Shown piece after piece: positions 46,888 through 62,649 of a stretch of DNA of 64,000 nt (its first letter is position 1; each line of letters begins with the position of its first letter). A program made the position numbers and the translations under genes. The notes below the pieces were generated by a model, which did no database searches, was not told the origin of the DNA, and saw nothing but the letters and a program-made list of their open reading frames with translations. The stretch spans positions 1 to 64,000 of the forward strand of contig NZ_MJAT01000002.1 of NCBI RefSeq assembly GCF_001742305.1, written 5' to 3'. Source of the stretch: Desulfuribacillus stibiiarsenatis. GTDB lineage: Bacteria > Bacillota > Bacilli > Desulfuribacillales > Desulfuribacillaceae.

Positions 46888-46958
46888 ACCCCTATACGTA
46901 TATAGACTTCTGTAGTATGATGTACTACAAAGGACTACTACGGATAGGGGTGTTTTAT
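46888..46958 (+). promoter_or_regulatory. Structured leader sequestering the transporter ribosome site
   Basis: ACCCCTATACG near 46889 can pair with CGGATAGGGGT near 46940-46950, which holds the AGGGG ribosome site of the next gene. A second hairpin TGTAGTA / TACTACA lies inside. This is the layout of a translational switch. No known riboswitch class recognised. Confidence 0.45.
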
Positions 46959-47957
46959 TTGGTCTCTGCAACACAATCTTGGATTAAAACGTTATTTATG
47001 CTACCGAATCGCAAAATCGTCTTTACAATACCTATAACAATCATCCTTGGAATTCTTGTCGGATCCCAATATGACACGAAATTTTTGAAAGATTATGTTC
47101 TAATTGTCTCGATATTAATGGTCTATCCATTGATGATTGGACTTAAGGTAAGTGAAGTGTTTAATTTGAAATACATGAAGTTGCTTAAATTAGCACTGGT
47201 GATTAACTTTACTTTTATCCCGTTAGTCGCCTATCTCCTTGGCTGCACGTTTTTGCAGACAGAACCGGACTTATTCGCGGGACTTGCCATAGTAGCGCTT
47301 CTCCCAACTGGCAACATGACGATTGCTTTTACAATGCTCGCCAAAGGGAATGTCCCGGCCTCGATTCAATTAACAGTCGTTGGTTTGTTAAGCGGGGCCC
47401 TATTAGCGCCTTGGTATTTGCTAGCCATGGTCGGCAAATATGTGCCAGTTGATATTGTCATAATCATGCAGACCATCCTTCTAGTCGTATTCGTACCATT
47501 ACTAGCAGGGTTAATAACCTATCAACTAATAATGAAAAAGGTCACGGAACAAACCTTCAAAGAAAAAATAAAACCTATACTACCTGGGTTTACAGCGTAC
47601 GGTATGATTTACATTATATTTACGAGTATTAGTATCAATGCAAACCGCATTTTAGCAGACTGGCATTTATTAGTCGTTGCTATAGGGGTGCTGCTTGCGT
47701 TCTATATAATAAATTTCAGTTTCTCCTTATGGTTAGGATATCGGACATTTCCGCGGGAAAATGGCATAACCCTTGTCTATGGCACAGCTCTTCGTAATCT
47801 ATCGATTGGACTTGGTATTGCTGTTACAGCCTTCGGCGCAAATGCCGCTTTAATGGTCGCTTTATGTTTCTTGTTCCAGCAGCAGTTTGCAATTCTATTG
47901 GCGAAGTATCATGGGAAACTGTACGAAGAAAAAGCCAGCAAAACGAATGCAGAATAA
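46959..47957 (+). CDS. BASS/ACR3-like transporter
   Basis: About 332 residues from TTG 46959, roughly nine bases after AGGGG; the frame is open from 46917 but ATG there has no site. Ten hydrophobic segments of the bile-acid:sodium symporter superfamily, with LLPTGNMTIAFTMLAKGN and YGTALRNLSIGLGIAV at the places where the ACR3/BASS crossover regions lie. The ACR3 membrane Cys motif (PCTAMVFVW in the other transporter of this window) is not present, so an arsenite substrate is doubtful. Confidence 0.75.
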   Translation: MVSATQSWIKTLFMLPNRKIVFTIPITIILGILVGSQYDTKFLKDYVLIVSILMVYPLMIGLKVSEVFNLKYMKLLKLALVINFTFIPLVAYLLGCTFLQTEPDLFAGLAIVALLPTGNMTIAFTMLAKGNVPASIQLTVVGLLSGALLAPWYLLAMVGKYVPVDIVIIMQTILLVVFVPLLAGLITYQLIMKKVTEQTFKEKIKPILPGFTAYGMIYIIFTSISINANRILADWHLLVVAIGVLLAFYIINFSFSLWLGYRTFPRENGITLVYGTALRNLSIGLGIAVTAFGANAALMVALCFLFQQQFAILLAKYHGKLYEEKASKTNAE

Positions 47958-51653: not shown

Positions 51654-52184
51654 TTATATTAAGTCCCAGCGATGCTGCCATGCATTCCATTCTTCGCGTA
51701 GTGGATGTTTCCCATCGTTCATAATAAGTACGCGCACCTGTTTTATCAGTGTCTGAAAGGACGTAAAGGCAATCATCTGATTCGCTAATGTTGTATACAC
51801 ACATAAGAAGTATGGCCCTTCGTGCTTACTAGTCAGAAAATCGACAGCAGTATCGATGGGTGTATACTTCTTTCTTTTGCCTTCCCATTGATCGATAGTC
51901 ACAAGTCCCGTTGCCCCTGCTTCTTCGATGAGGTCTTTCAGTTGGTCAATCCTTTTGTAATAGGGTGTTTCTTCTTTAATTCCTAAACGTTTCAACGTCT
52001 GCTCATTTTGCGGATAAAGCACTAGCTTGTTGAATCTTCTTTCGTCTGCTATCGCAACTAATTTCTGCATCCCCTGCAATGTCATTCCTTCAAAAGAATC
52101 CATCACAAATACTATCCCTTTAAAATCACTATCGTCTGGTGCTTCAAATCCAAATGGAACTTGTATGTTTCTCCTTGCCGCCAT
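51654..52184 (-). CDS. Hypothetical protein
   Basis: 176 residues, soluble, alpha/beta in character (FKGIVFVMDSFEGMTLQGM; FNKLVLYPQNEQTLKRLGI; GPYFLCVYTTLANQ). No family recognised. AAAGGAAG site. Isolated between the aconitase terminator and a stretch leading to the ars operon. The 52185-52530 gap downstream of arsD holds a structured repeat and the ars terminator but no gene. Confidence 0.6.
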   Translation of the reverse strand: MAARRNIQVPFGFEAPDDSDFKGIVFVMDSFEGMTLQGMQKLVAIADERRFNKLVLYPQNEQTLKRLGIKEETPYYKRIDQLKDLIEEAGATGLVTIDQWEGKRKKYTPIDTAVDFLTSKHEGPYFLCVYTTLANQMIAFTSFQTLIKQVRVLIMNDGKHPLREEWNAWQHRWDLI

Positions 52185-52530: not shown

Positions 52531-52845
52531 CTACTTGATATAACTCATGATTTCTTCTTTCGTAGGATACCCCTTTTGAGAAATCAAATTTCCATCTACA
52601 AAAACTAGTGGGAGTTGATCTGCACCTTCGTTTTGAAGAATCTCTGCAACCTTCGTGTTATTCATGAATTCAAACGGCTGAGCACTAATCATGAAGCGTT
52701 GGACTTCGACCTTATCTGCATAGTTCTTGCTTAATTCTAGAATCGTTTCTTGGAGCCTTAATAGCTTTTCATCAACACTTGGGCCACATACCCCGCTACT
52801 ACAGCACATTGCTGGGTCATAAATTTGAATCTTGACTTTAGACAT
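52531..52845 (-). CDS. arsD: Arsenic metallochaperone ArsD
   Basis: 104 residues, thioredoxin-like. The arsenite-binding Cys set is present in DPAMCCSSGVCGPSVD (C14, C15, C20). The rest of the fold is normal (FVDGNLISQKGYPTKEEI). ArsD carries As(III) or Sb(III) to ArsA and raises its ATPase activity. The C-terminal Cys pairs of some ArsD proteins are absent. It follows the probable selenoprotein gene by ten bases, in one operon with arsA and acr3. Confidence 0.93.
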   Translation of the reverse strand: MSKVKIQIYDPAMCCSSGVCGPSVDEKLLRLQETILELSKNYADKVEVQRFMISAQPFEFMNNTKVAEILQNEGADQLPLVFVDGNLISQKGYPTKEEIMSYIK

Positions 52846-52855
52846 CCAATCACCC

Positions 52856-53200
52856 CTAATTTATCGTATTGCTTTTCTTCATTTCCTTTAGAACTTCATC
52901 CACACTTAAATCTGCCGCAGACATTCTCAGTTCGCCATTGATAAACAGCGCTGGCATAGGACGACCTTCTGCTTGTAACTTCTTTATGTCATCATAAAAC
53001 GGAACAGCCTCTTGTGAGAACACATTAATAAATTTCACACTGGCATCTGCTGATATTTGTTCCTGCGCTAATACGTTCGTCATTTCTGCAACTTCTTCTG
53101 GTCCTTGCACCGACGGTGCACACTGTGAGCTAGGGCCTCAACCGCAAGCTGCTGATGATGGGAATCCTATGATAATTGCTTCAATTTTATTGCTACTCAT
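52856..53200 (-). CDS. Thioredoxin-fold protein of the ars operon, probable selenoprotein
   Basis: 114 residues when TGA at 53138-53140 is read as selenocysteine (U21). ATG 53200 follows GGAGGT at the right distance. The frame gives IEAIIIGFPSSAACG, U, GPSSQCAPSV, then a thioredoxin-like body (ASVKFINVFSQEAVPFYDD; GRPMPALFINGELRMS) in the style of ArsD. The metal or redox motif is C19-G-U21 with C27 nearby. A perfect hairpin follows the TGA at bacterial SECIS distance. Located between arsA and arsD, it may bind As(III) or reduce thiol-arsenic adducts. If TGA were a stop, only 20 residues would be made. Confidence 0.85.
53100..53140 (-). promoter_or_regulatory. Candidate bacterial SECIS element (with UGA)
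   Basis: UGA, 17 bases, then a perfect stem TGCACC / GGTGCA with loop GTC. The loop G is base 24 after the UGA. An outer helix GGCCCT / AGGACC with one mismatch closes the structure. This fits the bacterial SECIS rule of G at the start of the apical loop. Confidence 0.78.
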
Positions 53201-53293
53201 TTTAAATACCTCCGTTAGATGTAATGTTTTTACTATCGAATCGCCGTTTCATGTTTCCTGGTAGTAATCTACTTCCTAGGATAACGCGATTAA

Positions 53294-55144
53294 TTAAATC
53301 TCACCATATAAACCTATGGCGGCTTGTTTCAGCATTTCTAGACCTACTACTTCCTTCTCAAACATACTTAATTGCAGTATTTCAGCATCCCCGAAACGTT
53401 GTTTCATCTCTTGTAGGTTGCGTTGCTGCAACTCCCAACGGGAATGTAAGAATGGTGTATTACAGTGCTCTAATGGCAGAACAAGGTTCGCTACCACCAG
53501 GGATGTGCCAATTTCTACTGTACGCAATTCCTCTGAGGCACGTTGCGCCTCCAAAATTGGCGTAGCCTCTGGGTATACGACAAAAGACATAGAGGTCTGG
53601 TTCTGATCGCGCATTTTTGTTAACGCAGTTTCAAATCTCGCTCGAATGACTGCATCCTTATCGGCGATATTCCCCTTTTCCTTGGCATCCATCTTTTTGT
53701 TCCAATTGATTGGTAACTCAAGTAAACGCAAAGTATGTCCTGTAGGTGCTGTATCAAAAACGACTACCTCGTATTGATCCTCAAAGCCAACCATATATTG
53801 AATGAATTTGTGGAAAGATGCCATCTCTTCTGTACACGGAGAATCCAATTGTTCCGTAAGAACAGCCACCATATCCTCGGAATACTTATCTTTTGCATCT
53901 GCGATAATCTCATCACGATACTCTGCAAGGGCTTTTTTCGGATTGATTCGTGTTGCATGAAGGTTATCAATGTGTTCAACCACTGTAATTTGTTCCTCAA
54001 TTGGCTGCTCGAATACATTGCTTAAGTGAGATGCTGGGTCAGTCGTCACTAGTAGCGTTTTTCTACCTTTTAACGCGGACCATACAGCTGTTGCGCAAGC
54101 AATTGACGTTTTCCCTACTCCGCCTTTACCAGCGAATAACATGACTCGCTGTTTATGCCCTTGGGCAGGTAACACGATATGTGTTGCATCAGGATTACTG
54201 ATAATATGTTTCTTCCCTTGTTCTGTTGTCTCCCCATTTGCTTTTTGGAAAATAGGATCTACATATTGCGCATCATATAGAATTTTGCCCAATCGAAGTA
54301 AAGCGTCTTTGCCGCGAATTTCTACATTTAGCAGTGGAACCTTTTTAATAAGGATATCCAATTCCTTTTCCGTAGCTTCTAAATATCGTTGCTGCATTTC
54401 ACTACGTTTCTTAAAGAATGGGCTACTATGAACTTCTGGTGGCAATATACCGTTAATGATTAACTGGCTCGGAATAATACCAATTCGCTTTAATTCTTCA
54501 CTCGACCGCTTCATTTCATTTAATGGCGTAGCTTCCGGGTGAGCAACGAACACGAAAGTCGTAATATCTTGATCTCGCATCAATGAAATCGCACGTTCAT
54601 ACTTCTCCCGTGCCCCTTGTAATAATTGTACTGGACCCATGCAGGTCTGGCCACTTCCTTGCTCCGCTTCCTTAATATGTTTCGCCCAATCAATAGGCAA
54701 TTCTAGCATTCTCAGTGTATGTCCCGTTGGTGCGGTATCAAAGATAATTACATCAAAATCGGAAGATTCCATAAAATCAATGAATCGATCAAAGGATGCA
54801 ATCTCTTCTGTGCACGGAGAATTCAATTCTTCCTCTACCACATCAAGAATCTGCGGTGGGAGGATTTGACGCATCGGTTCCAATGTGCGATTACGGTACT
54901 CGACTGTCGCCTGTACTGGGTCAATCTCCATTGCTGAAAGGTTCGTAATCTCTGAAATTTCAGTGATTTTATGACCGATAGGTTGCATAAATACATCTGC
55001 TACATTGGACGCTGGGTCAGTCGTTACAAGTAGTGTCTTCTTGCCTAGGTTTGCATAATATACTGCCGTTGCTGAAGCTGTGGATGTCTTCCCTACTCCA
55101 CCTTTACCAGAAAAGAAGAAAAACTTTGTCTTTGGAGCTGTCAT
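53294..55144 (-). CDS. arsA: Arsenite-transporting ATPase ArsA (two-domain)
   Basis: 616 residues in two similar halves. Each has a P-loop (FFSGKGGVGKTS; LFAGKGGVGKTS) and the ArsA signature DTAPTGHTLR. Metal-site cysteines occur in SPCTEE of both halves and in GQTCMGP of the first. It hydrolyses ATP to drive arsenite or antimonite efflux through a membrane partner. The gene sits between acr3 and the selenoprotein/arsD pair. Pairing with Acr3 rather than ArsB is common in Bacillota. GAGGAGG site. Confidence 0.95.
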   Translation of the reverse strand: MTAPKTKFFFFSGKGGVGKTSTASATAVYYANLGKKTLLVTTDPASNVADVFMQPIGHKITEISEITNLSAMEIDPVQATVEYRNRTLEPMRQILPPQILDVVEEELNSPCTEEIASFDRFIDFMESSDFDVIIFDTAPTGHTLRMLELPIDWAKHIKEAEQGSGQTCMGPVQLLQGAREKYERAISLMRDQDITTFVFVAHPEATPLNEMKRSSEELKRIGIIPSQLIINGILPPEVHSSPFFKKRSEMQQRYLEATEKELDILIKKVPLLNVEIRGKDALLRLGKILYDAQYVDPIFQKANGETTEQGKKHIISNPDATHIVLPAQGHKQRVMLFAGKGGVGKTSIACATAVWSALKGRKTLLVTTDPASHLSNVFEQPIEEQITVVEHIDNLHATRINPKKALAEYRDEIIADAKDKYSEDMVAVLTEQLDSPCTEEMASFHKFIQYMVGFEDQYEVVVFDTAPTGHTLRLLELPINWNKKMDAKEKGNIADKDAVIRARFETALTKMRDQNQTSMSFVVYPEATPILEAQRASEELRTVEIGTSLVVANLVLPLEHCNTPFLHSRWELQQRNLQEMKQRFGDAEILQLSMFEKEVVGLEMLKQAAIGLYGEI

Positions 55145-55225: not shown

Positions 55226-56290
55226 TTATTTAGCTTTAACAATTTCCTGCGGGAACCAGTGGTTTGTGTTATTGGCAAATCGTACAAGTGCAAGCATTAC
55301 TGGAACCTCCACCAATACACCAACAATTGTCGCTAAGGCCACTGGAGACGTTGGTCCAAATAGTGCTATAGCCACAGCTACGGAAAGCTCAAAGAAATTC
55401 GATGCTCCAATCATCCCTGCTGGCGCTGCAATGTTATGTGGTAATTTCATAGCCTTCGCAGCAAAGTATGCAACGAAGAAAATAAAGACCGTTTGAATTG
55501 TTAATGGAATTGCAATTAGTACAATGTGTAATGGGTTTTGTAATATCACATCACCCTGGAAGGAGAATATGATCACAAGTGTTAAAAGTAACCCTAGAAT
55601 CGTAATATTATTAAATTTAGGTATAAAGGTATTCTGAAAATACTCGAGTCCCCTGTTCTTCACTACCAACATTCTCGTAACGATTCCTGCTACTAATGGA
55701 ATCACAACGAAGAGTATCACTGATAACGCTAGTGTCTCCCAAGGTACTTTTACACCACTAACACCTAATAAGAAGGCAACAATCGGTGTAAATGCCACAA
55801 GTATAATCAAATCATTGGTGGCTACTTGAACTACTGTATAGGCAGGATTCCCCTTGGTTAAATGACTCCATACAAACACCATTGCTGTACAAGGTGCCGC
55901 TCCAAGGAGTACAGCCCCCGCTAAATAATCTTTCGCTAAATCAGCAGGAATAATCGATTGAAAAACCACATAAAAGAAAAAAGCAGAAATGCCAAACATC
56001 GTAAATGGCTTTATCAACCAGTTGGTAACCCATGTGACATAGAGGCCCTTTGGACTTTTTCCAATATCCGTTACGCTCTTAAAATCGACCTTCATCATCA
56101 TTGGATAAATCATAATCCATATTAGGATAGCAATCGGTATTGAAACATTCGCATATTCGAACTGTCCTAAGAAATCCGGAATAAAAGCAAAATACTTCCC
56201 AATTAATATTCCTACGACCATACATAAGATAACCCAAATGGTTAAATTCTTCTCAAAAAAGCTAATACCTTGTAATTTTTCTTTTGCCAT
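55226..56290 (-). CDS. acr3: Arsenite efflux permease Acr3
   Basis: 354 residues from ATG 56290 behind TAGGAGA; the frame is open from 56308. Ten membrane segments of the ACR3 family. The key membrane Cys is in GAAPCTAMVFVWSHLTKGN and the second conserved region in GASNFFELSVAVAIALFG. It exports As(III), possibly also Sb(III), and can be energised by ArsA. It is the first gene of the ars operon. No arsR regulator is adjacent within the window. Confidence 0.95.
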   Translation of the reverse strand: MAKEKLQGISFFEKNLTIWVILCMVVGILIGKYFAFIPDFLGQFEYANVSIPIAILIWIMIYPMMMKVDFKSVTDIGKSPKGLYVTWVTNWLIKPFTMFGISAFFFYVVFQSIIPADLAKDYLAGAVLLGAAPCTAMVFVWSHLTKGNPAYTVVQVATNDLIILVAFTPIVAFLLGVSGVKVPWETLALSVILFVVIPLVAGIVTRMLVVKNRGLEYFQNTFIPKFNNITILGLLLTLVIIFSFQGDVILQNPLHIVLIAIPLTIQTVFIFFVAYFAAKAMKLPHNIAAPAGMIGASNFFELSVAVAIALFGPTSPVALATIVGVLVEVPVMLALVRFANNTNHWFPQEIVKAK

Positions 56291-56405
56291 ATCGTATCTC
56301 CTAACCAATAATTTTTTTCTTTCTTTGACACAAATATTACTGATTGACCGTATTAAGACTTAAAGAAAACTTGGCATTCGCAAGCTTTCTGGCGAAGAGA
56401 ATGCC

Positions 56406-58353: not shown

Positions 58354-59040
58354 CTAGAAGTCTCTAATATAAAATATTTTTGGTTTAGTGCCCTTTTCAA
58401 TTAACAGTTGTTTATGAGTATAACGGCTCAACAAATGATTAATTTCACTATCAGGGTCGTCTAAATCTCCAAAAATTCTTGCACGAGCAGGGCATGCAAC
58501 GCAACAATACGGATATTCACCTTTTTTGATTCGATGATCGCAGAAATTACATTTCTCCACGACACCTCTTGGACGTACACCTCCGTAAGTTTCCTCGCGG
58601 TCAGGGTTGTAATAAGGGATAGGAGTATTGGTCTTATCAATCACTTCCTTAGGTGCTGCTGTGACATTCGGAATTAAAGCTTCATCACTTTGCCAACTCT
58701 GATGCGGGACTTTATAATTCACATTGATGACGCCATACGGATCCGCTAATACACAAGTTTTACAGCCAATACATCGTTCAATGCTATGTAATGTAAGGCC
58801 ATTGTCATCTTTATACATCGCCTTTGTAGGACATGCTTTTACACAGGGGGCATCCATACAGTGATTGCATAAGGTCGGCAAGTACTGGAACTTCACATTA
58901 GGGAAAGTTCCTGTAGTACTGACCATATGATTAGACCAATAAAAGTCAGATGGGACGTTATTTTCGTTTTTACATGCAATATCACACGCACCACAACCTA
59001 CGCAGTTTTGCAAGTCGATTACCATCGCATAATTTGGCAT
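58354..59040 (-). CDS. arrB: Arsenate respiratory reductase iron-sulfur subunit ArrB
   Basis: 228 residues, a four-cluster ferredoxin of the DMSO-reductase family. Cys sets: C13/C16/C19/C23; C58/C61/C66/C70; C90/C93/C96; and C164/C167 with C179 or C180 and C183. The third set lacks its fourth Cys: the motif reads CIGCKTCVLADPYG, with Asp at position 100. The codon is plainly GAT. Asp can ligate a 4Fe-4S cluster in some ferredoxins. It passes electrons from the membrane subunit to ArrA outside the cell, moving with ArrA by Tat. It ends the arrCAB operon. Confidence 0.9.
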   Translation of the reverse strand: MPNYAMVIDLQNCVGCGACDIACKNENNVPSDFYWSNHMVSTTGTFPNVKFQYLPTLCNHCMDAPCVKACPTKAMYKDDNGLTLHSIERCIGCKTCVLADPYGVINVNYKVPHQSWQSDEALIPNVTAAPKEVIDKTNTPIPYYNPDREETYGGVRPRGVVEKCNFCDHRIKKGEYPYCCVACPARARIFGDLDDPDSEINHLLSRYTHKQLLIEKGTKPKIFYIRDF

Positions 59041-59059
59041 AGAATATCACCTCACTCAT

Positions 59060-61675
59060 TTAAATTTTCACAATTTTTACTCTAGTTACCCCACCATGAC
59101 GGGCTGTACTACCACTTAATCGATCATAGTCTGCAGGGAGTATCAAATTATTGTTACCACCACGCGGGATACCTTGTTGGAAGTCCTTTGCTGCTAACGC
59201 GCCGTATGCCCAATGGCCTTGTCCATAACACTTTGCAATAGTTCCTGGTCGAATCCCCTCCCAAAGCTTCGCATGGCATGATATTTCACCAACTGGAGAT
59301 ATAATTTTTACTGTATCTCCATTATTTACTCCTATTTTACTGGCATCTATTGGATTAATTTTTACTACATCATCCCAGCGTTCATCCCCAGGATCGACAT
59401 CCTTATGAGCATAGTACCAAGTGAGATTCTGTGATCTTCCTTCACGATTTAAGCGCGACCTATGTTCGAAGAATATAAACGGAAACTCTTCCTCATTCCC
59501 CCACCTATAAGCTTCTTCATAATGAGGGACAAACGCAACTTCACCACGTGCTTGATATTTGGTTGTTTCTAAGACATCATCAATTGTTGTTACGTGTTTT
59601 TCAGCATGTTTTTTTAACGCATCTTTTAATGTTTCGCTATAGAATTCAAACTGACTGGTAGATGTATTGAAATTGCCCCATTTGCTTCGATAAATATAGT
59701 CTGAAGAATTCCACACTCCGACTTCGCGGAAATTTTCCCAACCAGTAAAGAAATCACCTGACCATCTACGTCTTCTTTCCTTTTCATCGATATCCCAAGA
59801 CTCATCTTCGATTGGTGGTTGCTCATCCTTCGTTTTATAGAGAGTAGGATCCCACATCGGTTGTGTTAACATTTTTAAAGAAATTAACGAAAACTCTAAT
59901 CCATTTTTAGGGCGATCCCCGGTTTCCGGATCTATAAACTCTGTACTATAGTATCGGTAAAGGTTATCGAATCCTTTTTCTGCTAGCTTTTCAGCCAACA
60001 TCCACGGAATCTCTGTTTCATCCATTTTAACGTCCCATAGGTTATCTAGTACTGGTTGATTTAGTGTTGCATATGATACACGATTATATTTACTTTTTAC
60101 ATATCCCCACTTCTCAAACATCTGATGACCAGACGGAAGAACGATATCTGCATATTGACTCATTTCCGAAATATTTGTAGTAATATGAGCGAAAAACGGA
60201 ATCTTCTCCATTGCCTGTTCCCATCGTGATGCACCTGAACAAGAAAATGTGAAGTTATTCCAATAACCAATTGCCATCTTGATATCATAAGGGTCATCAG
60301 TAAGTATTGAGTCCGCGACTTGGTTTATAATCGAACCTCCGCCAGACTTCCCGTCTTTTAATGAAGGATAAACTTTCGTCCCACGATGGTCCATTTTCTT
60401 TTTCTTGCCATTGGTAAGCGCAATTTCATCCTGATAATCCGTAAATTTGGGAATTGTATTATCTGGAACTTTCATACCTTGTAGCGTTCCGCCTACATTG
60501 TCCACTGATCCAACGAGTCCATTCAGAGCGTGTGCAGCCATTGCAGTGTATCCGCCTCTTACTTGCATACTAGCCCCGGGAGATACCCACGAAATACTAT
60601 GTGGGGCAGCTGCTGCGAACTCTCTAGCCACATTATATATGGTTTCAGGAGAGATTCCAGTTCGCTCACTAGCCCATTCTGGAGTTTTATCTTTCAGTTC
60701 TATGTTCCACCATTTCACAACACCAAAGGTATAATTTTCTTTAAAAGAAGCCTCATCCACTTCTTTCCCAACATCAAATTGTACCGATTGGTCGATAAAA
60801 TCCCCCACAAACTCTTTATTCCATAACCCTTCCGTTAAGATTACATGGGCAATCGCCACTGCTAATGCTCCATCTTCCCCTGGTATTACAGGAAGCCAAA
60901 TCTTTGCTTTTGCTGCCGTAGCCGATAGACGCGGATCCACAACCGCTACTTTCGCACGATCAAGTACTTGTCCCCAAACATTTATAGCGTGGGGAACTTG
61001 TCGATTTGAAGAAATTGGATCGGCGCCCCAGGCTAATACGTATCGAGTGTTTAGAAGGTCATAATCGCGGTAATCCCAAAACCCTTCTGTATAATAAGAA
61101 CCAAATTTCTCTGCTTCTGCGCAAATCGAACTATGTGAAATGTTGTTCGGAGTGCCATAAATTTTCGGTAATGCTTCATAGATAATATCTCTCATAAACG
61201 AATACCTACCACGAAGAAGCATGAACTTGTGACTTTCGTTCTCATTTCTAAGTTCAATCATCTTTTCAGCAATTGTATCCATTGCTTCGTCCCAGGTAAT
61301 AGGCACAAATTGCGGATCGATGCCCTTTCCCTTTACTGGGTATGTCCTTTTCATTGGGCCTTTCAAGCGATCTGGGTCATACATTTGCTGAAGTGCCATA
61401 TGCCCCCTTGGACAAACGTTCCAACGGTTTGCTCTTGCATTAGTATTTCCCATAACTTTAACAGCCCGCTGATTCACTATATAAACTTGAACTGGACACC
61501 ACGATGTACAGCCTTGGCAAGTACTTGGCTTCCATTCTCCTTGCTGAGTCTCTGGATTGATGTCACCCTGCGCTCTTGCCTTTTCAGAAAAGTATTTTAG
61601 ACTTAGACTACCACTAACAATTGTAGCACTTGAAATCGCTGTCGCTTTTATAAAACTTCTACGATTCATTTCCAT
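59060..61675 (-). CDS. arrA: Arsenate respiratory reductase catalytic subunit ArrA
   Basis: 871 residues, molybdopterin enzyme of the DMSO-reductase family. Tat signal NRRSFIK at the N-terminus. The 4Fe-4S motif C-x2-C-x3-C-x27-C is at residues 53-88. ArrA hallmarks include RGRYS (155-159), YYTEGFWDY (194-202) and WWNIELKDKT, the last two being the regions used for arrA primers. Residues known to me from the Shewanella ArrA structure have counterparts: R157, Y158, H181, S182, K190, Y202, and Cys185 as Mo ligand. It reduces arsenate to arsenite outside the membrane. Antimonate reductases and polysulfide reductases are related, but the motifs favour ArrA. Confidence 0.92.
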   Translation of the reverse strand: MEMNRRSFIKATAISSATIVSGSLSLKYFSEKARAQGDINPETQQGEWKPSTCQGCTSWCPVQVYIVNQRAVKVMGNTNARANRWNVCPRGHMALQQMYDPDRLKGPMKRTYPVKGKGIDPQFVPITWDEAMDTIAEKMIELRNENESHKFMLLRGRYSFMRDIIYEALPKIYGTPNNISHSSICAEAEKFGSYYTEGFWDYRDYDLLNTRYVLAWGADPISSNRQVPHAINVWGQVLDRAKVAVVDPRLSATAAKAKIWLPVIPGEDGALAVAIAHVILTEGLWNKEFVGDFIDQSVQFDVGKEVDEASFKENYTFGVVKWWNIELKDKTPEWASERTGISPETIYNVAREFAAAAPHSISWVSPGASMQVRGGYTAMAAHALNGLVGSVDNVGGTLQGMKVPDNTIPKFTDYQDEIALTNGKKKKMDHRGTKVYPSLKDGKSGGGSIINQVADSILTDDPYDIKMAIGYWNNFTFSCSGASRWEQAMEKIPFFAHITTNISEMSQYADIVLPSGHQMFEKWGYVKSKYNRVSYATLNQPVLDNLWDVKMDETEIPWMLAEKLAEKGFDNLYRYYSTEFIDPETGDRPKNGLEFSLISLKMLTQPMWDPTLYKTKDEQPPIEDESWDIDEKERRRRWSGDFFTGWENFREVGVWNSSDYIYRSKWGNFNTSTSQFEFYSETLKDALKKHAEKHVTTIDDVLETTKYQARGEVAFVPHYEEAYRWGNEEEFPFIFFEHRSRLNREGRSQNLTWYYAHKDVDPGDERWDDVVKINPIDASKIGVNNGDTVKIISPVGEISCHAKLWEGIRPGTIAKCYGQGHWAYGALAAKDFQQGIPRGGNNNLILPADYDRLSGSTARHGGVTRVKIVKI

Positions 61676-61699
61676 TAGAAGACCTCCAATCTATCACAA

Positions 61700-62581
61700 T
61701 TAGAAATTAAAAAATGGTACTAGGGTTTGGCCAATCGTCAAGATAATTTGTTTAGCTGTAAAAACACCTACCAGAATACAAATACTTATTACTCCAGCAG
61801 TACCTGTTGTAAGGGTTCGTTTGTTATACCACTGGACTAGCAATACTATAATAGGTAAAATTGTTCCAATCGCTAAAACTATTGTCCACCAATAGATTGA
61901 ATATCTTTCTAGCATTAAAGCATATACAGTTTCAACCTCAACTCCAGCTCTGCTTGTGAAAAAGTGCCACAGCCCGATAAATATTAATTGCATTACCAAT
62001 AATCCTAATAACCATGGCCTAATCACTGTTAAATCAAAACTCAACTTTTTCTTAGAAGAATAGGCAATCCAGATAATCGTAACGAGTGCAATTCCAGAAG
62101 CTATGGAAGAGACAAAAAAGATTGGTACGATTAGCTCAGACCAAAGTGGTCTTTCAACGGATGCTAATAATAAGCCATGGTAAAGTCCTACTGCAATAGC
62201 AAACGGCACTCCAATTAATTGGATCAGTTTTACTAATTGGTTATTTGTTTGCTGCTGATTGCTATAGAGCATGTAAGCATAACCAAGGGAAATGATTACA
62301 AAGGCAGTTTGCAAATATACTCCTATAGAAAGAACCGACTGAGGATTTACACGAAATAGAGTAGTGATAAATTTCTCTGGTCTACCAAGCTCTGTTACAA
62401 GAAATAACAGACCTAACATCACGGCTACAGGAGCAACATAAGCACTAATTCGTACCAATTGACCACTATTATCTTTCTTCGTTGAACTTAAATACACGGA
62501 TAAAAGAAAAGCCCCTACCCCGACTCCACCGAAAAACAAATCTAATGTAACTCGAATATCCCATGGAAAAATAACAACCAT
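61700..62581 (-). CDS. arrC: Arsenate reductase membrane subunit ArrC (NrfD/PsrC type)
   Basis: 293 residues from ATG 62581, nine bases after AAGGAAGG; the frame extends to 62590. Eight or more membrane helices, beginning VTLDLFFGGVGVGAFLLSVYL, the NrfD/PsrC pattern. It oxidises menaquinol and feeds ArrB and ArrA. The operon order arrC-arrA-arrB is known from Bacillota arsenate respirers. The promoter should lie at 62590-62650, after the tatA terminator. Confidence 0.88.
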   Translation of the reverse strand: MVVIFPWDIRVTLDLFFGGVGVGAFLLSVYLSSTKKDNSGQLVRISAYVAPVAVMLGLLFLVTELGRPEKFITTLFRVNPQSVLSIGVYLQTAFVIISLGYAYMLYSNQQQTNNQLVKLIQLIGVPFAIAVGLYHGLLLASVERPLWSELIVPIFFVSSIASGIALVTIIWIAYSSKKKLSFDLTVIRPWLLGLLVMQLIFIGLWHFFTSRAGVEVETVYALMLERYSIYWWTIVLAIGTILPIIVLLVQWYNKRTLTTGTAGVISICILVGVFTAKQIILTIGQTLVPFFNF

Positions 62582-62649
62582 ACAATCCATCCTTCCTTAT
62601 GTAAAAAATGGTGACATTACTATTTTGCGCATTAGATAAAATTTACATA

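Follow-up and report, generated by a model that had tools for sequence, protein, structure and literature searches.

A 64,000-nucleotide stretch of the Desulfuribacillus stibiiarsenatis genome (positions 1 to 64,000 of contig NZ_MJAT01000002.1; the window) contains an arsenic resistance operon in which one short gene carries an in-frame TGA, raising the question of whether this gene is broken or encodes a selenoprotein and, if the latter, what a selenol would do beside proteins of arsenite export. The original prediction, made from the sequence by itself, placed a probable new selenoprotein between arsA and arsD. Curated models agree with that placement, as the arsD match is to an NCBIfam equivalog and both flanking genes score over their cut-offs.

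52531-52845, minus strand: arsD, arsenite metallochaperone, 104 aa (NF033727, 112.4 bits, cut-off 90; PF06953)
53294-55144, minus strand: arsA, two-domain arsenical pump ATPase, 616 aa (NF041417, E 4.7e-186; TIGR00345 over cut-off)
55226-56308, minus strand: acr3, arsenite efflux permease (TIGR00832, 373.9 bits, cut-off 282.8)

The genes share one strand throughout, with arsA upstream, acr3 further upstream and arsD downstream of the predicted selenoprotein gene. Since the adjacent gene already supplies a normal ArsD, the predicted selenoprotein is not a replacement for it. On its other side, arsD adjoins a gene for a 176-aa protein with no NCBIfam match (51654-52184, minus strand), and a second, divergent ACR3/BASS-type transporter, far under the acr3 cut-off, is encoded at 46917-47957 on the plus strand. 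Roughly 2 kb from the ars operon, positions 58354-62590 (minus strand) hold genes of an arsenate respiratory reductase: ArrA (NF041714, 1117 bits, cut-off 1600), an ArrB-like protein (NF041715, 325 bits, cut-off 450) and, judged by eye, a probable NrfD-type membrane subunit. Both scores lie under the curated cut-offs, so the enzyme is possibly a divergent relative, and the ArrA/ArrB-type genes suggest an arsenate-respiring, Desulfuribacillus-like bacterium (cf. PMC5105095). An Rfam scan of the window returned no matches.

The frame itself and its signals are as follows.

52856-53200, minus strand: predicted selenoprotein gene, thioredoxin-fold and ArsD-like, motif AACGUGPSSQCAP, 114 codons plus TAG (from the translation with TGA as Sec, and from TGA and Cys homologues)
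53138-53140, minus strand: in-frame UGA, codon 21, predicted to be read as selenocysteine (from conservation in the sister genus locus L019, Cys/Sec alignment in relatives, and dN/dS)
53209-53213, minus strand: ribosome-binding site GGAGG, 8 nt 5' of the ATG (read from the sequence)

Translated with TGA as selenocysteine (U), from its ATG (53198-53200) to its TAG (52856-52858), the gene gives 114 residues: MSSNKIEAIIIGFPSSAACGUGPSSQCAPSVQGPEEVAEMTNVLAQEQISADASVKFINVFSQEAVPFYDDIKKLQAEGRPMPALFINGELRMSAADLSVDEVLKEMKKSNTIN. Codon 21 lies in the context ACG-U-GP, that is, within the predicted C-G-U motif of a minus-strand frame; the good ribosome site and start that had been described are also there, and 93 codons follow the UGA where about 94 had been estimated. 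Standard gene-calling software would read this gene as truncated by a stop codon, and the standard ORF listing gives a GTG-started downstream frame of 84 aa (53110). That listed frame is the point in favor of a true stop, with the locus either a decaying ArsD-like copy or the source of the 84-aa product alone, but we consider this very improbable: the GTG at 53110 has no ribosome site before it and sits within a hairpin described below, and the truncated form would lose the conserved Cys loop.

Comparison with the sole other genome examined from the same taxonomic family, which represents a sister genus (L019), argues further against a stop. There the gene again lies between arsA and arsD in the same order, the UGA is kept, and the protein is about 51% identical across the alignment. 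Between window and sister, dN/dS (Nei-Gojobori) is about 0.24 before the UGA and about 0.31 after it, rough values because synonymous divergence exceeds 1, and both point to purifying selection. The UGA and both of its flanks are thus conserved in another genus.

The selenocysteine machinery is complete in the window's genome, which encodes a tRNA-Sec (61 bits, over the Rfam cut-off; ARAGORN also calls tRNA-Sec, with anticodon TCA), SelA, SelB, and a Sec-type SelD (417 bits against TIGR00476) that has its own in-frame UGA at the known GUGCK position. The gene for this SelD (L052:6563-7618; SSKAGUGCKIGP around the UGA) stands in a row with selA. The prediction was open to the objection that selA, selB, selC or selD might be missing, and this does not apply because the full set is present. 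SelA and SelB are present in all 15 genomes that carry the family; as SelB occurs in 266 of 398 genomes of the phylum (67%), this co-occurrence is only mildly informative. The machinery also bears on the idea that UGA is generally reassigned or suppressed in this organism (for example, to Trp) and that the residue is something other than selenocysteine. Beyond the open frame, nothing favors this, and we regard it as scarcely credible: TGA is the ordinary stop for 5 of the 49 long frames in the window, a tRNA-Sec is present with all its partners, and relatives have Cys at the aligned position.

The window also has a candidate bacterial SECIS (bSECIS) hairpin.

53106-53120, minus strand: hairpin UGCACC-GUC-GGUGCA, candidate bacterial SECIS, 6 perfect pairs with G first in the loop

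Its loop begins 23 nt past the UGA, in keeping with the perfect hairpin, G at the loop start and SECIS distance claimed originally. We applied a constrained bSECIS rule (perfect stem of at least 4 pairs, loop of 3-14 nt starting 16-37 nt past the UGA, G among the first two loop bases) and scored it against dinucleotide shuffles. The window hairpin satisfies the rule with p 0.022; about 2% of shuffles are as good, so alone it is merely suggestive. The sister hairpin, GCGCC-GGA-GGCGC (p 0.040 in the same test), keeps the identical 23-nt spacing and has one compensatory A-U to G-C change. Across 10 TGA members the combined p is 7e-5 (Fisher's method), a value that is somewhat optimistic because the members are related, as against 0.40 for 15 Cys members (TGA vs Cys difference, p 0.004). 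Three TGA members (L021, L025, L027) have a weak hairpin or none under the strict rule. Minimum-free-energy z-scores of the region past the UGA are unremarkable, and only the constrained bSECIS test stands out.

A profile built from two sequences, those of the window and the sister genus, was searched against 398 evenly drawn genomes of the phylum. It matched in 15 of them, a tally that includes the window's genome and one false positive, L033, a lipoprotein that we rejected as a member. The phylum matches plus the sister genus, minus L033, give 17 true loci. Of these, 11 carry a single TGA within their Cys-rich loop, the motif being CGUGP, SGUGC, GGUNC, GGUSC, CMGUP or GGUGP; the other 6 are Cys-only. 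A wider scan of named genomes, using the group nearest to arsD-arsA operons, found 28 further loci, including ones in Desulfosporosinus, Thermosediminibacter, Proteiniclasticum and Oceanirhabdus; 3 of the 28 repeat places from the phylum search, and one extra match, in Chitinophaga, was left out. Selenocysteine occurs in three of these loci (UxC in L054, L055 and L076) and Cys elsewhere (CxC), and CxC/UxC pairs exist within the members of group A. The Cys homologues called for by the original prediction were found, in that L070 (GCGCGPKQ) and L079 (GCGCGPSQ) have CGCGP as direct counterparts of CGUGPSSQ in the window. The tree requires at least 5 switches between Sec and Cys, and well-supported branches force at least 3 of these. 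Given the CGCGP members and these exchanges, the objection that homologues might never carry Cys at this position does not apply, and exchange of Cys and Sec among relatives again speaks against a true stop. With the Sec machinery, a UGA conserved in a second genus, and Cys homologues, the predicted selenoprotein within an ars operon is supported, and it is near certain that 52856-53200 encodes one.

Some relatives show histories of their own. At L038 (5001-6500) a transposase gene lies between arsA and the Sec-containing relative, whose first strand is apparently lost, and this relative is probably a damaged copy. Several Desulfosporosinus genomes (L056, L064 and others) have two Cys-form copies on separate contigs. 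No relatives were found in plasmid or phage collections, nor in viral contigs.

Genome context ties many, and not all, members to arsenic. Both arsD and arsA occur within about 6 kb at 8 of the 16 loci with extended flanks, typically in the order arsR-arsD-arsA1-arsA2-gene; at one more locus the gene is flanked by an ArsR gene and acr3, and at another it comes after genes for ArsR and a small thioredoxin. In the named-genome scan, ArsA, ArsD or Acr3 is nearby at 12 of the 28 loci. About half of the relatives are located away from ars genes, including the Sec-containing L049, L050 and L051. In two lineages (L050 and L051) the relative has miaB and mutS-like genes (named by eye) downstream of it and is not part of an ars operon, which suggests a second role for the family.

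The thioredoxin fold, asserted at the outset, now has support from both profile search and a structure model. Scans of Pfam and NCBIfam found no model that fits the window protein (PF06953, NF033727 and PF13192 give nothing at E up to 1) and none that covers the family, a single-sequence phmmer search of the PDB yielded chance matches only, and BLASTP against the neighboring ArsD gave no alignment, so homology to ArsD is visible only at the profile level. There, the family profile matches the window's own ArsD (E 2e-6), and hhalign against an ArsD profile gives a probability of 96.6% with one Cys loop aligned on the other. Searched against solved structures, the profile picks out two thioredoxins, 1fo5 (E 3e-5) and 1nho, together with the DUF1462-like 1xg8 (E 8e-5), all with E between 3e-5 and 1e-4. 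In an AlphaFold2 model (mean pLDDT 64.6, pTM 0.55) strands and helices follow one another as in a thioredoxin fold, and the Cys/Sec loop, itself at pLDDT below 50, comes after strand 1. The model's best structural match is 1xg8 (Z 8.3); many thioredoxins match as well, and among them stands ArsD (3mwh and 3kgk, Z about 7.5). The family's invariant P83 falls at the cis-proline place of the fold.

Together, profiles and model place the family, as a predicted thioredoxin fold, near ArsD and DUF1462/YuzD. With ArsD (PF06953, NF033727) it shares the fold, the operon, and a Cys-rich loop past the first strand that ends in C-G/A-P, but ArsD has a vicinal CC and a third Cys whereas the window protein has C19-x-U21 and C27, and the two form separate clades in the tree, with no ArsD model matching the window protein. 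DUF1462/YuzD (PF07315, 1xg8) provides the best fold match, a profile relation, and weak Pfam matches in some members; it differs in its CxxC motif, has no Sec among the proteins examined, and is likewise a separate clade. The family profile also detects DUF1462/YuzD-like proteins of the window's class (L084-L101), and their grouping beside ArsD in the tree hints at one ArsD/YuzD superfamily. Two relatives have weak NCBIfam matches to VcpD, an ArsD-related vicinal cysteine protein (NF047871; L027, E 0.006; L032, E 0.04), but these are far under the 90-bit cut-off, and the window protein has none. A recoded gene of an ArsD-superfamily clade is embedded in ars operons. Neither the kinship with ArsD nor the wider ars-linked family was part of the original prediction.

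What the protein may do follows from this placement less firmly. In our proposal, SelA, SelB, SelC and SelD would recode UGA codon 21 to selenocysteine, aided by the hairpin just downstream, and the product would belong to the ArsD/YuzD superfamily as a small thioredoxin-fold protein of the cytoplasm. Three soft ligands, Cys19, Sec21 and Cys27, would sit in the loop that joins its first strand to its first helix, placed where ArsD has its As(III)-binding cysteines. The resemblance of these three residues to the three As(III) ligands of ArsD favors metalloid binding with hand-over or buffering: the most likely activity is the binding of As(III) (or Sb(III)) by thiolate and selenolate, and the bound metalloid may be buffered or passed to ArsD or ArsA of the co-encoded ArsD-ArsA-Acr3 efflux system. 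Whether the selenoprotein handles arsenic by such a mechanism we judge to be evenly balanced.

The same fold, together with the CxU pair and the cis-proline, would also suit a redox role. The main alternative is a selenoprotein oxidoreductase in which CxU serves as a redox couple rather than a metalloid carrier, reducing a substrate from the arsenic pathway such as arsenate, thioarsenate, or the oxidized or arsenic-bound thiols of ArsD, ArsA or ArsR. The invariant cis-Pro position, the two conserved half-cystine positions of C-x-C/U, the members outside ars loci, and the usual role of Sec as a catalytic redox residue (PMC13188914) all speak for it. Yet the third Cys (C27), ArsD-like with its GP and nearly invariant, would be superfluous in a dithiol redox center, the closest profile relatives include ArsD and DUF1462, and no reductase partner gene adjoins. 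We consider the oxidoreductase a serious possibility, though a doubtful one. The best reading, which we favor modestly, is a new ArsD-like selenoprotein family that binds As(III) and works with ArsD-ArsA. More tentatively, and with some doubt, we suggest that in this uncatalogued family, from arsD-arsA operons across several Bacillota families, the selenolate replaces an arsenic ligand of ArsD, so that arsenite efflux would run through an As(III)-selenolate relay.

Of the 119 families of prokaryotic selenoproteins catalogued in a May 2026 review, none is described as ArsD-like or arsDA-linked (PMC13188914). Our literature search found no report joining a selenoprotein and ArsD, within a corpus that mostly excludes subscription papers and in which absence is not proof, and none relevant by title joining selenoproteins and 'ars operon'. 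Nearest by motif are the Brachyspira selenoproteins Sec.1 (CxU) and Sec.2 (UxC), likewise small thioredoxin-fold proteins, but their Sec or Cys lies in a short extension before a Thioredoxin_3 domain (PF13192) and no ars link is reported (PMC5330540); PF13192 matches none of 9 singly scanned members of our family at E up to 1 and 1 of a family set of 27 at E 0.05. Sec-ArsM and a Sec arsenate reductase (PMC13188914) also use selenocysteine in arsenic handling, but their families, of methyltransferases or arsenate reductases, have no relation to the one described here. The gene almost certainly makes a small ArsD-related selenoprotein, and its family, which occurs in ars operons of several unrelated Bacillota, had not been catalogued before.

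The finding contributes a selenoprotein family missing from current catalogues, whose members gene callers would cut short, and links it to the export of arsenite by ArsD-ArsA, a defined pathway. Repeated Sec/Cys exchange supplies natural matched pairs for measuring what selenocysteine adds. Selenium and arsenic bind and antagonize each other strongly, and a selenol where ArsD has an arsenic ligand would make biological As-Se bonding directly testable.
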